Assembly (NCBI GenBank): GCA_026770595.1
Contig: MU633744.1
Coordinates: 1 to 25,711 of the forward strand
DNA: 25,711 nt
Direction of reading: 5' to 3'
Source: Ochromonadaceae sp. CCMP2298
Taxonomy: Eukaryota > Sar > Synurophyceae > Ochromonadales > Ochromonadaceae
Positions within the stretch are counted from its first letter, which is position 1; each line of letters starts with the position of its first letter. Under the pieces are notes generated by a model that was not told the DNA's origin, did no database searches, and saw only the letters and a list, made by a program, of their open reading frames with translations. Shown here in pieces: positions 2,527 to 16,691 of this stretch. Both the position numbers and the translations under genes were made by a program.

Positions 2527-5500
2527 CTAACCCTCCGAGTCCCCATCCACCTCCTCCTGGCACCTCTCCCGCCACTCCCTCTCGCCCGCCTCGTGCGCCG
2601 CCTCCAACGCGTCCTCTGCCGCCTCTGCCTCCGCCTCAGCCTCAGCCTCTGCTTCTGCCTCCTCCGAATTCGCCTCCATATCTGCCTCCCTAAGCCCCGC
2701 TCCCGCCTCCGCCCCCGCCTCCCTCGCACAGCTCACGTCCCTCACGCTCATGTCCCAGTCCAGGCGAGAGACCTTGCTGGACTGCGTCAGCCGGGGAGTG
2801 TCCACGCTGGACTTGCCCGAGGCGTCTGGGTAGTCGGGGTAGGGGGCAATCTTGCCGAGTCCGAGCAGTCTGGGGCGTTTAGACCTCGTCCCCCCCCCCT
2901 CTGCCCCGTCGCTGTCGGAGCTGGCCAGGGAGCGTTTGTCGGTGGCAGAGACGGTGCGGTCCACTTGGATAGTGCATGTGTTAGTAAAGTATTTATATAT
3001 ATGTTAGTAGTGTATTTATATTTATATATATGTGTGTTAGTAGTGTATTTATATTTATACATATGTGTTTGTATAGTATTTATGTTTGTCAGTACCGGTA
3101 TAGCAAATTATATATGGTATAGTATAGTTAGTATAGTATGTATACATATATATATATGTTTATGTTTATGTTTGTGTTTATGTATACATATATGAATATA
3201 TCGTGCTCACCCTGAATGGAGCTCCTCACCAGGTCCTGCAGAGCGGTCAGGGAGGAGCGGAGGCGGAAGTGCAGCTTGTTGCTGAAGCCTGTCAGCTTGT
3301 GGCGCCGGTTGGCTGTGCAGGGGGGTGCAGCGGGGGGTGGGTGGGGGGTAGAGGGGATATAGTGTGAGTGGGTAGTGGTTGGGCAGAGAGGAGAACGGCA
3401 CACTAGTTGTGCTTCTACTCCTACACCTACTCCTATTTATACAAATGCTCATACTGTTACTAGTCCCACTCTGATACTGCTGCTGGAACCATTCCTCACA
3501 TACATATACACAAATAATCGTTTAAACCCACATATAAATGCAACAATAATCATATAAACCCACAGTAACTCACAGTTGATTATGTATGCCTTCATGAAGA
3601 CCGTCTGCTCCTCCCTGAGAGGCCGTAGACCGAATTAGATAAACCATAGAGTATAAAATGGGTTTTAGAAAAAAAAAACAGTTAGCGTATAGAAGGTGAA
3701 AAGACCAGATTCGGCCCAGGGAAACATAAAATTCAGATAAAAAGACGAAAAATACGTATTTTATGTAATTCACCTACACGTACCTGCTGAAGCACTGCCG
3801 TCTCTCCACCACGGCGAAATAGTAGACCACCATCCCCGCCACTAGGCAGAAGAACCCCACCGTGGCGCCCCAGTCCTCCCCCTGGTCTAGGGGCAGCAGG
3901 AAGAGTAGAGCCACCTCCACCTGGGGGTAGTGGGGTAGTGGGGTGATTAATAAAATTAGTGGGGTGATTAGTAAGTGTGATAGGGTGATTAATAAAATTA
4001 GTGGGGTGATTAGTATGGGTGATAGGGTGATTCATAGAATTATTGGGTGGGTAGTAAGGGTGATGGGGTTATTGATTGAGTTATCAATAGGTTTATAGGG
4101 TTATCAATAGGCTAGTAGGGTAATTAGTAGAGTAGGGTAATAGGGTTTTTAATATTAATTGGGTAATTATTAATAATATAGTTATACGTACCACGGTGAA
4201 TATCGCTATGCCCAGAAGTGCTCCGGGGATGCCCAGTGGCGAGCGGAATTCTCTGGCGATGTTGGAGAAACGCGTGCGGAACTGAATGAATGCGAGGAAT
4301 ACCAATACGTACACCACGCAGCCCCCCTGCAGCGCCGTCCGCCGTCCGTCGACCGAATTAGATAAACCAAAAAGGATAGTTTTAGAAAAAAAAACAGTTA
4401 GCGTATGTGGTAGAGGGTGGAAAACCCAGATTTGGTCGGGGGGACGATAAAAAGACGTGATAAAAAGACATTAAAAGACATGATAAAAATAACGGATTTT
4501 TTTTAATTCGGGGGGGGGGGGGGTACACCTACCTGCAGGGCCGTGCGGAAGAGCAGCGTGTATGGGTTGAACAGCCAGGCCACCACCAGGCCCACCAGCC
4601 CCACTCCTGTGACGAACAGCATAGCCCACACGGGGGTCTTGTAGAGGGGGGGTAGAGGGGTGGGGGGGTAAAGAGGGGGTGTAGTGTGAGTAGTTGGGTG
4701 CAGGGAACGGGGGGTAGAGGGGGGGGGGGTTAGAGAGGGGGTATAGTGTGAGTTGGGCAGTGGTTGGGCAGGGACAACGACGGGTGCTACTTACCTTGTT
4801 ACTGCCGAATGTGCGCCTGAACACTGGGGGCAGCAGGCCGGACCGCGCCATGGCGTTCACCTGCCTGCCCGCTATGTACATGAAGCCTGGTAGGGTGTAT
4901 AGAGTAAAAGATTATAGAGTATACGGTTAGAGTATAGGTTGTAGTATTTATAGAGTATCAGATCACAGAGTATTATTGAGTAAGGGCAGGGGCAGGGAGC
5001 AGGGGGCAGGGGCAGGAGCAGGAGAAGGGGAGCAGGGAGCAGGGTTAACATCCACAAGCACAACGCACACAAGCCCCCGAATTGACAGATACATGATATA
5101 ACTAGTAATATATTGAAAACTGTCATCAATATATACGTATTATTACCCGTGCAGCTGGCGAAGGACGGCGCTATACTGAACGCCACCCCGTATCTGTTGC
5201 TGATGCCCAGCACTGCCCCGAAACCGGGACTTAGTGGGAAATCATTCCCGACCTCGAAGAACGCCCCCACCAGCCCGGGTGCCTGCCCCGCCACCGTCAC
5301 CTGTGCAGATGCAAAAGATGTAAGAGGTGGGTTAATGCATATATCAGTATAGGAGGGGGTTTAATGCGTGTTATAGTATATGGGTTACACATTGTAATAC
5401 AGAGGGGGATAAGTACACACCTCTAGCCACAGGGAGAGCAGGCACATGATGCACATGACGGTGATCATGGCACGGGGGATGTTCACCTTGGCCTGTGGGG

Positions 5501-7226
5501 AGGGGGAAACAGGGTTAGGGATGGGGTGAGGGTGAGGGTTAGTAACGACAGATCAGTGGTTAATAGAATAAATAATAGAAAAAATAATAGAATAAAAAAT
5601 AGTAAAATAATAGAGAAATAATAGTAATACTAAAACCGCTGTCATAGAAATACGATCATAAACAATGTACACTTCCACCAATCGCCCCGCACCCCTGCCC
5701 CTCCCTTACTTACGTTCTGCACCTCTTCGCAGGTGGAGGTGAGTAGGTCGATGCCGACGAAGAACCAGCCCGGCAGACGCCTGCGAGTAAGAGTCAAATG
5801 TGTAATAAGTAATAAAACATTATATAACTTACATGGCGAGGAATAAGTAATAATCAAATATTGTGTAATAAATATGAGTAATAAAACATAATATATAACA
5901 TATATATAAAAATATATATATACATATATATATGTGTGTACCATAGTGTGCAACTTACATGGCGGGGAAGAACATGAGAATGTCTATATATACATACATA
6001 TATATATACATATACACATATATATACACATATATATATATATACACATCTTACATGGCGAAGAAGAACATGAGAATGTCTCCGGAGAAGCCGTTGGGGG
6101 CGTTCTCAAAGGCGTACCTCTCGAAGTCCTGGTAGGGGGGCGTGGAGGGTTAGCACACATACATGTATGTATATGCATACATATATACATACATATACAT
6201 ATACATACATGCATACATACATACATATATATATGCATACATACATACATACATACATACATACAAACAAATGTACCTGGTAGGTGCTGAAGTCGCTGAT
6301 TACGAATACGGCGTATACGGTAGTGAATACGGCGAATACTACAGTGAATACTATAGTGAATACGGTGCATACGGTAGTGAATACGGTACATACGGTAGTG
6401 AATACGGTGAATACAGTGAATACGGTGAATACAGTGAATACGGTAGTGAATACGGCGAAAACAGTGAATGCTGCGGTGAATACAGTGACCACGGTAGCTC
6501 ACCAGATGCTTGATGGACCCCAGCAGGAAGATCAGCAGGCTCGTCATGGTCAGCAGCGTGCACAGGGACATGAAATTCCAGAAGGCGATGCCGCCCCTAG
6601 AGATGTGTATAGGGTATAGAGATAGGGTATAGGGGGAGGGTATAGTGTATAGTGTATAGTGTATAGTGTATAGTGTATAGTGTATAGTGTATAGATGTTT
6701 AGAAGATAAAACAATAGTTGATGAGCAATACACCAATGAAGATGGCTGATCGCTAAATTGATTATGGTATGTCAATACTCATTAAACTTCTGATGAAAAG
6801 CAGTACCTGATGTGGAAGAGGATCATAGCGGAGTAGCCCACGACCCACCACAGCACCTCGTAGATGCGGCGTGTACCCAGCAGCACAGTGGTGGCTTGGC
6901 CTAGTTTGATTTATAGAGGGGGTTTAATACAAATTATAGTATAGAAAGAGGGGGGTTGATACCTAGTTTGAACAGGCTCACGGTGAGGAAGAATATGGAC
7001 TCTGAGAGAGGGGCGGGGGGAGACGGGGAGAGGGGAGATGTGAGATGCGAGAGGGGATATGGGAAGTGGGAGGTGGGATGGGAGGGGAGATGTGAGATGT
7101 GAGATGTGAGATGGGAGGTGGGATACGGGGGGGGGAACCGCTCACCTATAAGACCCATGCAGCCGCACAGGTAGCCCCAGAAAGGACCCAGGGAGGCTCG
7201 CACGTAGCCGAAGTGGCCGCCTGTAG

Positions 7227-15304: not shown

Positions 15305-15430
15305 TAAGGGCAGATACCTGGGACCGTTGTCAGCTATAGCACCTCGTCCCCTCCCTCTCCCCACGCGTCAAAACACCCTCACAGCAAGGGACCCCACTGG
15401 CTGGCCGTTGCCTCGTCCCACGGGCAGGGA
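15298..15430 (-). repeat. Copy 2 of shared ankyrin-gene 3' end and flank
   Basis: Inverted counterpart of 1980-2113. Homology covers the last codons (...DEATASQWGPLL), the TGA, and about 85 bp of untranslated flank down to TTAGGGTGAGGG, after which this copy expands into the long pyrimidine tract. Confidence 0.85.
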
Positions 15431-16320
15431 GGGTCCTGGGCTCGTAGCCACTGCAGCACATGCACGTGACCAGCCACTGCAGCACCTGTGCAAGTCCCTT
15501 CGTCCCAAGGGCAGGGAGGGTCCTGGGCCCGCAGCCACTCCAGCACATGCACGTGACCACCCCGTGCAGCAGCTTCGCAAGTCCCTTTGTCCCCAGGACA
15601 GGGAGGATCCTGGGCTCGTAGCCACTCCAGCACATGCACGTGACCACCCTTTGCAGCATACCAGCAAGTCACTTGGTTCCAAGGACAGGGAGGGTCCTGG
15701 GCCCGCAGCCACTCCAGCACATGCACGTGACCAGCCACTGCAGCACCTGTGCAAGTCCCTTCCCAAGGACAGGGAGGATCCTGGGCTCGTAGCCACTCCA
15801 GCACATTCACGTGACCACTCTTTGCAGCGGAATAGCAAGTCCCTTTTCCCCCACGACAGGGAGGATCCTGGGCTCGTAGCCACTCCAGCACATGCACGTG
15901 ACCACCAGCTGCAGCAACACCGCAAGTCCCTTCCCAAGGACAGGGAGGATCCTGGGCTCGTAGCCACTCCAGCACATGCACGTGACCACCCTTTGCAGCG
16001 GAATAGCAAGTCCCTTTTCCCCAAGGGCAAGGAGGGTCTTGAGCTCGTAGCCACTGCAATACCTCCTGATGGCCACCTACCGCTGCCTTCTCGGTAACTA
16101 GATTCGTCCGAGGCATGTTGAGCTCCTCCCACGCCCAGATAATCAGAGAAGTTGACAAATAGTCATCGATTCTCAATTCCTCAACAGGCGTGGTTGCCAG
16201 TTGATCTCTCCACAGCCTCGACACGAGCCTCAGCTGCGCGTCACAGGAAGGGCCCAGGAACTCTCTGACATACCGCAGCACGATCGGAAACGCCACGGCG
16301 GAAGGAGAGGGAGGCTCCAT
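15379..16320 (-). CDS. F-box-like / ankyrin-repeat (CPW type) protein, 313 aa
   Basis: ATG at 16320-16318 to TGA at 15381-15379. The frame is open further upstream to an ATG at 16536, but the shorter start puts an F-box-like helix pattern at the N-terminus: AVAFPIVLRYVREFLGP followed by AQLRLVSRLWRDQL, which resembles the L/P...I..FL...L..VSR.WR arrangement. From about residue 75 there are eight WLRAQDPPC motifs in ankyrin-like units of 28-29 residues (GTCxxAAxGGHVHVLEWLRAQDPPCPW). In F-box/ankyrin proteins the N-domain recruits SKP1 for ubiquitin ligation and the repeats bind a target; that role is inferred from the family. Repeats are near-identical at DNA level, indicating recent expansion. 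One unit has CRG instead of CPW and another CPG. Flanked upstream by transposon remnants. Single-exon; no introns seen. Confidence 0.75.
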   Translation of the reverse strand: MEPPSPSAVAFPIVLRYVREFLGPSCDAQLRLVSRLWRDQLATTPVEELRIDDYLSTSLIIWAWEELNMPRTNLVTEKAAVGGHQEVLQWLRAQDPPCPWGKGTCYSAAKGGHVHVLEWLRAQDPPCPWEGTCGVAAAGGHVHVLEWLRAQDPPCRGGKGTCYSAAKSGHVNVLEWLRAQDPPCPWEGTCTGAAVAGHVHVLEWLRAQDPPCPWNQVTCWYAAKGGHVHVLEWLRAQDPPCPGDKGTCEAAARGGHVHVLEWLRAQDPPCPWDEGTCTGAAVAGHVHVLQWLRAQDPPCPWDEATASQWGPLL

Positions 16321-16691
16321 GATTGAATTATGAAGCTCCTGGCACTCATGCCACACGGTTAAGTTTGCAAGCAGCAAGAGTTGAGGAGATGCTCTTGACC
16401 ACGTTTTGCCGAATTTGCTACGACGCCGTGCTGCCGCTATCATAGAGCATTTGGCGCCTTTTAAGAGAAACACATGCCCATATTTCTTAAGAGGAACCTT
16501 GGGAACAGATGTCCCGATTTTGGGATATTTGGGCAACTTTTTGATAGAAAGACCCTTCTTTGGGTGAGGATTTTAGGCCCTCGTGAGAGGTGCCATCGTA
16601 TATAACAGTTTACCATCGAACCTAGGCTCATACACAACGGCCGATTTAGTACCCCCAAAAAGTCGGTTTTTCGGCCGATTATTTCGGCCGA

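Follow-up and report, generated by a model that had tools for sequence, protein, structure and literature searches.

Two introns of a permease gene resemble each other nearly from splice site to splice site, which raises the question of whether they are copies of an element that makes introns by inserting itself into exons (an introner), or older introns that came to share sequence in some other way. The gene lies on the minus strand of a 25,711-nucleotide window, the whole stretch of DNA analysed here, on contig C61 of an assembly of 11.2 Mb in 724 contigs. The initial annotation proposed the introner reading, and copy number, extent to the splice sites, sense context, reading frames and the protein records of relatives all support it: with a probability of about 0.93, both introns are members of one family of ~150-b introners that has spread by insertion into coding exons.

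Two related introns in a permease gene

The introns had been annotated at 3783-3615 and 4532-4327, and the sequence has GT...AG ends at exactly these positions. Ordered, co-oriented blocks, namely TACGCTAACTG with a T-run, CTAAAAC and TGGTTTATCTAATTCGGTC, are common to both, as annotated; the distance from the last block to the 3′ splice site required correction, being 13 b in the first intron (copy 1) and 24 b in the second (copy 2) instead of 16-20 b. Copy 2 exceeds the consensus length of the family; its 5′ end bears a C-run, and its 3′ end is extended by GACGGACGGC. The 3′ inverted-repeat arm of copy 1 (Table 1) contains CTAAT, which we take to be a branch-point-like motif, and the TACGCTAACTG box of the same copy may act as a second branch-point-like element, CTAAC.

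Table 1. Introner copies, their conserved parts and the neighbouring permease exons in the window
Feature	Position	Strand	Basis
Introner copy 1, complete 169-b permease intron, GTACGTGTAG...CCTCTCAG	3615..3783	-	sequence, profile, alignment; frame and homologue alignment
Introner copy 2, complete 206-b permease intron, GTAGGTGTAC...GCTGCAG	4327..4532	-	sequence, profile, alignment; frame and homologue alignment
5′ inverted-repeat arm, copy 1 (GAATTACATAAAA)	3759..3771	-	sequence; alignment
3′ inverted-repeat arm, copy 1 (TTTATCTAATTCGG)	3630..3643	-	motif search
5′ inverted-repeat arm, copy 2 (CCGAATTAAAAAAA, partly decayed)	4498..4511	-	sequence
3′ inverted-repeat arm, copy 2 (TTTATCTAATTCGG)	4353..4366	-	motif search
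Conserved TACGCTAACTG box, copy 1	3679..3689	-	sequence; alignment
Conserved TACGCTAACTG box, copy 2	4395..4405	-	sequence; alignment
Permease exon upstream of copy 2	4533..4637	-	sequence; spliced protein
Permease exon from copy 2 to a non-introner intron	4192..4326	-	sequence; spliced protein
Permease exon upstream of copy 1	3784..3920	-	sequence; spliced protein
Permease exon downstream of copy 1	3574..3614	-	sequence; spliced protein

The two copies match a profile of eight seed copies, all from other contigs, with E = 1.1e-27 and 9.2e-20; since the profile was built without them, their similarity is not due to chance. The spliced permease piece of 332 residues matches the amino-acid permease family PF00324 at 52.2 bits. 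Its homologue P0121 (281 residues, 33-kb contig, 62% identical) aligns without a gap at either introner junction, the one gap of two residues lying away from both, and P0122-P0127, from shorter contigs, are likewise ungapped at the two positions. No transcript identical to the window permease was found, and the splicing of both introns is therefore supported by family membership, frame and homology.

Other repeats are present in the window. At 5820-6110 on the minus strand, a permease exon end with its 5′ splice site (ACATTCTCATGTTCTTC..GCCATGTAAG) recurs about three times, whole or partial and closely spaced, a pattern resembling local duplication of both into the next intron. Two opposite-strand reading frames at 1174-2028 and 15379-16536, similar in DNA, contain WLRAQDPPCPW repeat units and are presumably ankyrin-like. 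A dispersed minisatellite with a unit near GGGGGTTTAATACACATTATAGTATAGA occurs near 5354 and 6917 and, elsewhere in the genome, at L018:5883-5997, L019:1432-1597, L027:2885-2993 and L033:3955-4294; it is partly plainly intronic. An introner lies no more than 4 kb from 42 minisatellite clusters; 35 of these are antiparallel to the nearest introner (gene sense TGTATTAAACCCCC) and seven parallel, and the minisatellite is possibly a second, tandem-repeat intron family.

A dispersed family of short elements in coding sequence

Element ends: The family consensus spans GTAGGTGT to CCTCTCAG, and the 151-b seed consensus reads GTAGGTGTCCGAATTACATAAAAGACGTCTTTTTATC...TACGCTAACTG...TTTATCTAATTCGGACGCCTCTCAG, with AGGTGTCCGAATTACATAAA as the element end sequence. 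The element carries both splice sites, GTAGGT at the 5′ end and CTCTCAG at the 3′ end. Alignment of 95 copies, cut at their inferred splice sites, revealed the 5′-end variants GTAGGTGTCCGAATTA, GTAGGTGTAGGTGTTGTAGAATTA and GTACGGTTAGGATTA. The element has a terminal inverted repeat (TIR) of 14-19 bp, in which AGGTGTCCGAATTA and TAATTCGGACGCCT form 14 pairs, including one G-U, followed by four to five more; copies with other 5′ ends retain the inner arm only. Neither this repeat nor the absence of a target-site duplication (TSD) had been noticed in the initial annotation. The predicted fold of the consensus has -33.8 kcal/mol (z -4.6), a stability reached by none of 200 shuffles; the weaker value for the window copy (z -2.25) is not comparable, since trimming had cut its 5′ arm. 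Copies end near splice sites, as expected of introners: 94 of 106 matches lack no more than ~10 positions at either end of the profile, whose own limits are the splice sites (start by model position 11, reach to at least position 140 of 151). Some matches are without one end, for example L024 411-308 and L017 6679-6537.

Family size: As a BLAST query, copy 1 found at least 41 places including itself, a count based on scoring 40 of 173 candidates. Allowing one mismatch at most, the motif TTTATCTAATTCGG occurs 140 times genome-wide, 100 of these matches being itemised, versus once for the backward control; the 140 include some 5′ arms, which lie within one mismatch of the motif. Twenty regions (L009-L028, ~185 kb) were picked around matches, blind to gene context, and these together with the window gave 106 matches to the seed profile and again 106 to the refined profile. 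Nine arbitrarily chosen 5-kb pieces added two copies, and one weak partial match brought the total to 109 in ~250 kb, where the motif matches number 73. With 29 further matches above 20 bits in 25 small pieces aimed at itemised motif matches, 138 profile matches were found, in keeping with the many copies predicted for an introner family. Genome-wide, the rough estimate is 200-500 copies, from ~210 by scaling the 140 motif matches to ~500 from the nine arbitrary pieces, the latter with a wide error. The median pair of copies is 77% identical.

The family is strongly clustered, with many copies on a few contigs (C185, with 29 aligned copies; C107; C526), and, given 140 motif matches, at least 584 of the 724 contigs hold none. 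Tetranucleotide composition, mildly shifted in the arbitrary pieces without a clear split from the copy-rich pieces, does not clearly suggest a mixed bin as the source of this clustering. Viral contigs contained no match to three exact core patterns of the introner; their 13 RPB1-like loci are distant (26-40% identity). A search for a longer or autonomous element behind 5′-motif matches that had no itemised 3′ end, including a pair 2.4 kb apart on C395, resolved these into separate ~150-b copies.

Coding context: Frame and orientation were assessed in 124 copies, 14 of the 109 having been left out for want of a placed boundary or sufficient flank. The flanking frames join only on splicing in 115 of the 124 (68/74 outside RPB1, the gene of an RNA polymerase II subunit; 20/21 within it; 27/29 in the further pieces), versus 33.5% for a set of 3000 random sites chosen without regard to splice dinucleotides. 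The sense orientation gives the higher flank score in 116 of 124 (68/74, 20/21 and 28/29, respectively), versus 49% at random, so that the predicted sense placement was borne out. The codon model was trained on RPB1, and the RPB1 copies are thus not independent of it. Of random windows taken outside the copies in the retrieved DNA, only ~42% look coding on one strand or the other; the bias of the copies towards exons in sense is thus far from what chance placement would give. Nine copies failed the frame test and eight the sense test, and some non-exonic or decayed copies may exist; by eye, no clearly intergenic copy was recognised.

These results bear on two explanations that dispense with an introner family. 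An ordinary transposon could have landed twice, in the same orientation, within two older introns, for which the likeness of two introns in one gene is the only argument. This is rejected, as a very improbable event, because homology reaches both splice sites (94/106) and exon frames join on excision (115/124); the relatives' protein records, uninterrupted at the sites, also contradict it. Gene duplication or low-complexity composition, with no mobile element at all, has a parallel in other introns of the genome that share simple minisatellite sequence, yet the conserved boxes are complex sequence, and the best copy outside the seed set matches the profile at E = 1.7e-41. The exon flanks of the itemised copies differ, confirming that the similarity does not extend into exons, and the hosts include RPB1, the permease and other unrelated coding sequence. 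We regard this second explanation as next to negligible, and the introner family is retained.

Intron load and insertion sites in RPB1

RPB1 lies on the plus strand of C185, from ~6320 to 15.3 kb. Our model contains 25 introns, 22 introners and three others, and its 1762 codons are free of stops; among solved RPB1 chains, the best match to the spliced model scores 1457 bits. A public contig of 5830 b, P0001, is identical to the first 1731 residues of the spliced protein and agrees with it across all 25 modelled junctions. We infer that it is a transcript contig, since it is too short for a genomic gene of ~9 kb, and the host splicing machinery appears to remove the elements cleanly. P0001 differs further in one absent 7-residue CTD repeat and in 38 extra N-terminal residues, which imply another RPB1 intron upstream.

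In five relatives (P0003, P0011, P0020, P0021 and P0024), RPB1 is a single protein of 1611-1655 residues, 65-79% identical to ours, on contigs of 21-179 kb (P0003: 79%, 71.5-kb contig). Their records are uninterrupted at almost all RPB1 introner sites, as is that of P0121 at both permease sites, in agreement with the expectation that relatives lack these introns; to judge from the protein records, the DNA there is probably intron-free. The odd first and last residues of the records look like plain open-frame calls entering terminal introns. In an alignment of 16 relatives, no residue is gained or lost around introner junctions in conserved stretches, a comparison that leaves aside junctions in variable stretches, such as those at residues 1291, 1608 and 1629. 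The simplest reading is that nearly all RPB1 introners were gained in the lineage of the window.

That lineage is apparently chrysophyte. A FastTree phylogeny of RPB1 (the query, its 70 nearest records and further labelled records) places the query in a clade with a Paraphysomonas-labelled record and apart from diatom, Tribonema and oomycete records; Paraphysomonas is a chrysophyte. The record P0039, labelled Ectocarpus fasciculatus, falls inside the chrysophyte-like clade and away from P0069 (label Undpi1, presumably Undaria), probably owing to contamination of the record. A conserved 18S motif was absent from the assembly.

Insertion sites are far from uniform. Twenty of the 22 RPB1 introners lie directly after C(A/T)G. 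The coding sequence of RPB1 has 26 CAGG sites, of which 10 hold an introner, and G occupies +1 at 73% of introner sites versus 28% of all C(A/T)G sites in the gene. Outside RPB1 as well as in it, 94 copies could be placed, 11 of the 106 matches remaining unplaced and one lying too close to an edge. The placement rule fixed (A/T)G as the last two exon bases and (C/T)AG as the last three intron bases, and these letters were not counted; among the others, T is the second intron base in 92 of 94 copies, exon position -3 is C in 84, position -2 is A rather than T in 79, and the next exon starts with G in 64. This CAG/G bias (the slash marks the insertion point) could reflect either targeting by the mechanism or selection for sites that splice well.

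No TSD signal was detected in the 94 copies over all position pairs within 20 b of both ends, a search that a duplication concealed in the near-invariant CAG might escape. Signals of z >3 at offsets 18 and 33 were read not as duplications but as codon periodicity across the splice, because both offsets are multiples of three. Empty alleles were not found in the assembly: 11 of 83 eligible joined junctions were searched, and the 22 matches were all half-sites. Contigs C209 and C223 (L003, L004) look like alleles, but are identical over all 1983 b compared, with mirrored match spacing; they represent assembly redundancy and, being 100% identical, are uninformative on empty sites.

The origin of introns in bulk is a long-standing question. 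With 22 introns of one family in RPB1 and uninterrupted records in relatives of 65-79% identity, this gene gives a direct view of how introns were gained, which sites they took and how the protein was affected.

Routes of spread and relation to known introners

The route of copying is the least certain part of the explanation. In our reading, non-autonomous mobile elements of ~150 b, carrying the 5′ splice site GTAGGT, branch-point-like boxes and the 3′ splice site CTCTCAG, enter coding exons, in most cases behind C(A/T)G and with CAG/G preferred, and the spliceosome excises exactly the element, restoring the original message. As to how copies are made, we lean towards DNA-level transposition over spliceosomal reverse splicing: a transposase supplied in trans would move the TIR-bearing element, which resembles a miniature inverted-repeat transposable element (MITE), and leave no TSD. 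The RNA route, which we hold to be possible rather than probable, would have excised intron RNA reverse-spliced at CAG/G into another transcript or into R-loop DNA and fixed via reverse transcription, the inverted arms being an intron stem instead of transposon ends.

The arms are central to this choice. AGGTGTCCGAATTA and TAATTCGGACGCCT pair as a TIR, and a TIR of 14-19 bp is a hallmark of DNA elements, but in RNA the sole mismatch of the outer DNA repeat turns into a G-U pair. Arm pairing is weakly better within than between copies (938 versus 928.3, SD 4.3, z 2.3, 87 of 95 copies), which is no clear sign that compensatory change maintains the stem; the weak covariation, which probably reflects subfamily structure, was set aside as support for an RNA stem. 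The nearest relative of a copy lies on the same contig in 25% of cases versus 12.6% expected (p = 0.0013), and three of the ten closest pairs lie on opposite strands of C185, an arrangement that speaks against the RNA route; the locality signal is due to C185 alone and disappears when this contig is excluded (p = 0.70, n = 66). In favour of the RNA route, the ends of the element are splice sites, CAG/G is a proto-splice site, similar fungal elements have been argued, in the portion of the source considered here (PMC8469720), not to transpose as DNA, and 116 of 124 copies lie in sense beside coding sequence although only ~42% of random windows are coding. The absence of TSDs between the 94 end pairs counts against the DNA route, because at 77% median identity duplications should still be visible. 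Together with the position of copies in exons in sense and with the choice of proto-splice sites, the missing duplication is no harder to reconcile with reverse splicing than with DNA transposition.

An autonomous partner for DNA transposition was sought at three of 11 PIF/Harbinger-type and all three MULE-type loci, none of which carries both arms; at L078, the 13-b 5′ arm is matched twice, each time with three mismatches, and the 3′ arm not at all. The transposase frames (L077-L082) comprise 11 matches to PF13359 and three to PF10551, two of these above the cut-off, and most are without internal stops. As a tentative synthesis, a stramenopile alga may harbour one short intron family, free of duplications and aimed at spliceable CAG/G in transcribed exons by reverse splicing or by a splice-site-seeking transposase, which in one lineage would have taken RPB1, a gene that reads as nearly single-exon in relatives, to more than 20 introns.

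Introners as such are already known; the present family looks new, published family tables being outside our comparison. No report of chrysophyte introners was found in the papers searched, and, if the chrysophyte placement holds, introners extend to this further group. The main text of Gozashti et al. 2022 (PMC9860276) has no word beginning with chrysophy-, and its surveyed set of 175 genomes may include the present one; candidate introners are noted for mirusviruses in the part of PMC12768974 that concerns them, and PMC4457414, searched for terms on splice sites and structure, contained none. Gozashti et al., in the passages used here, describe introners as similar introns that reach near both splice sites, often have TIRs and are enriched in aquatic species and in genes (PMC9860276). 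The present family shares the splice-to-splice similarity and the TIRs, and its combination of TIRs with no TSD is that of their Acanthoeca example. Their Aureococcus example likewise carries both splice sites, but has an 8-b TSD and adds 12 b to the message, (PMC9860276), whereas the present family shows no TSD and adds nothing to the protein wherever junctions can be aligned. Because it combines TIRs with sense placement and shows no TSD, the family is well suited to the debate over DNA- or RNA-mediated introner spread.

The same combination, an inverted-repeat intron without TSD on the coding strand, is the signature of fungal introner-like elements. The symmetrical sister (stw)introns of Hypoxylaceae, as far as the consulted part of PMC8469720 describes them, have TIRs and seamless insertion, no flanking duplication and function on the coding strand only, as here, but their TIRs measure 45-55 nt and they have no site preference, in contrast to arms of 14-19 bp and preferred CAG/G in a different eukaryotic group. 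That preference is closer to the AG/GY sites of the other fungal introner-like elements of van der Burgt et al., as cited there (PMC8469720). Amoebophrya introner elements, according to the sections of PMC7789003 drawn on, resemble ours in inverted repeats at both intron ends (8-20 nt in theirs), a hairpin and no internal transposase; they differ in having 3-5-nt direct repeats that span the boundaries and splice sites that are for the most part non-canonical, whereas the present family is GT-AG and has no direct repeats. MITEs, characterised in the same sections as short, non-coding, non-autonomous TIR transposons with many copies (PMC7789003), share their brevity, lack of coding capacity, TIRs and abundance with the present family, which is set apart by the undetected TSD and by the position of nearly all tested copies in sense within coding sequence.
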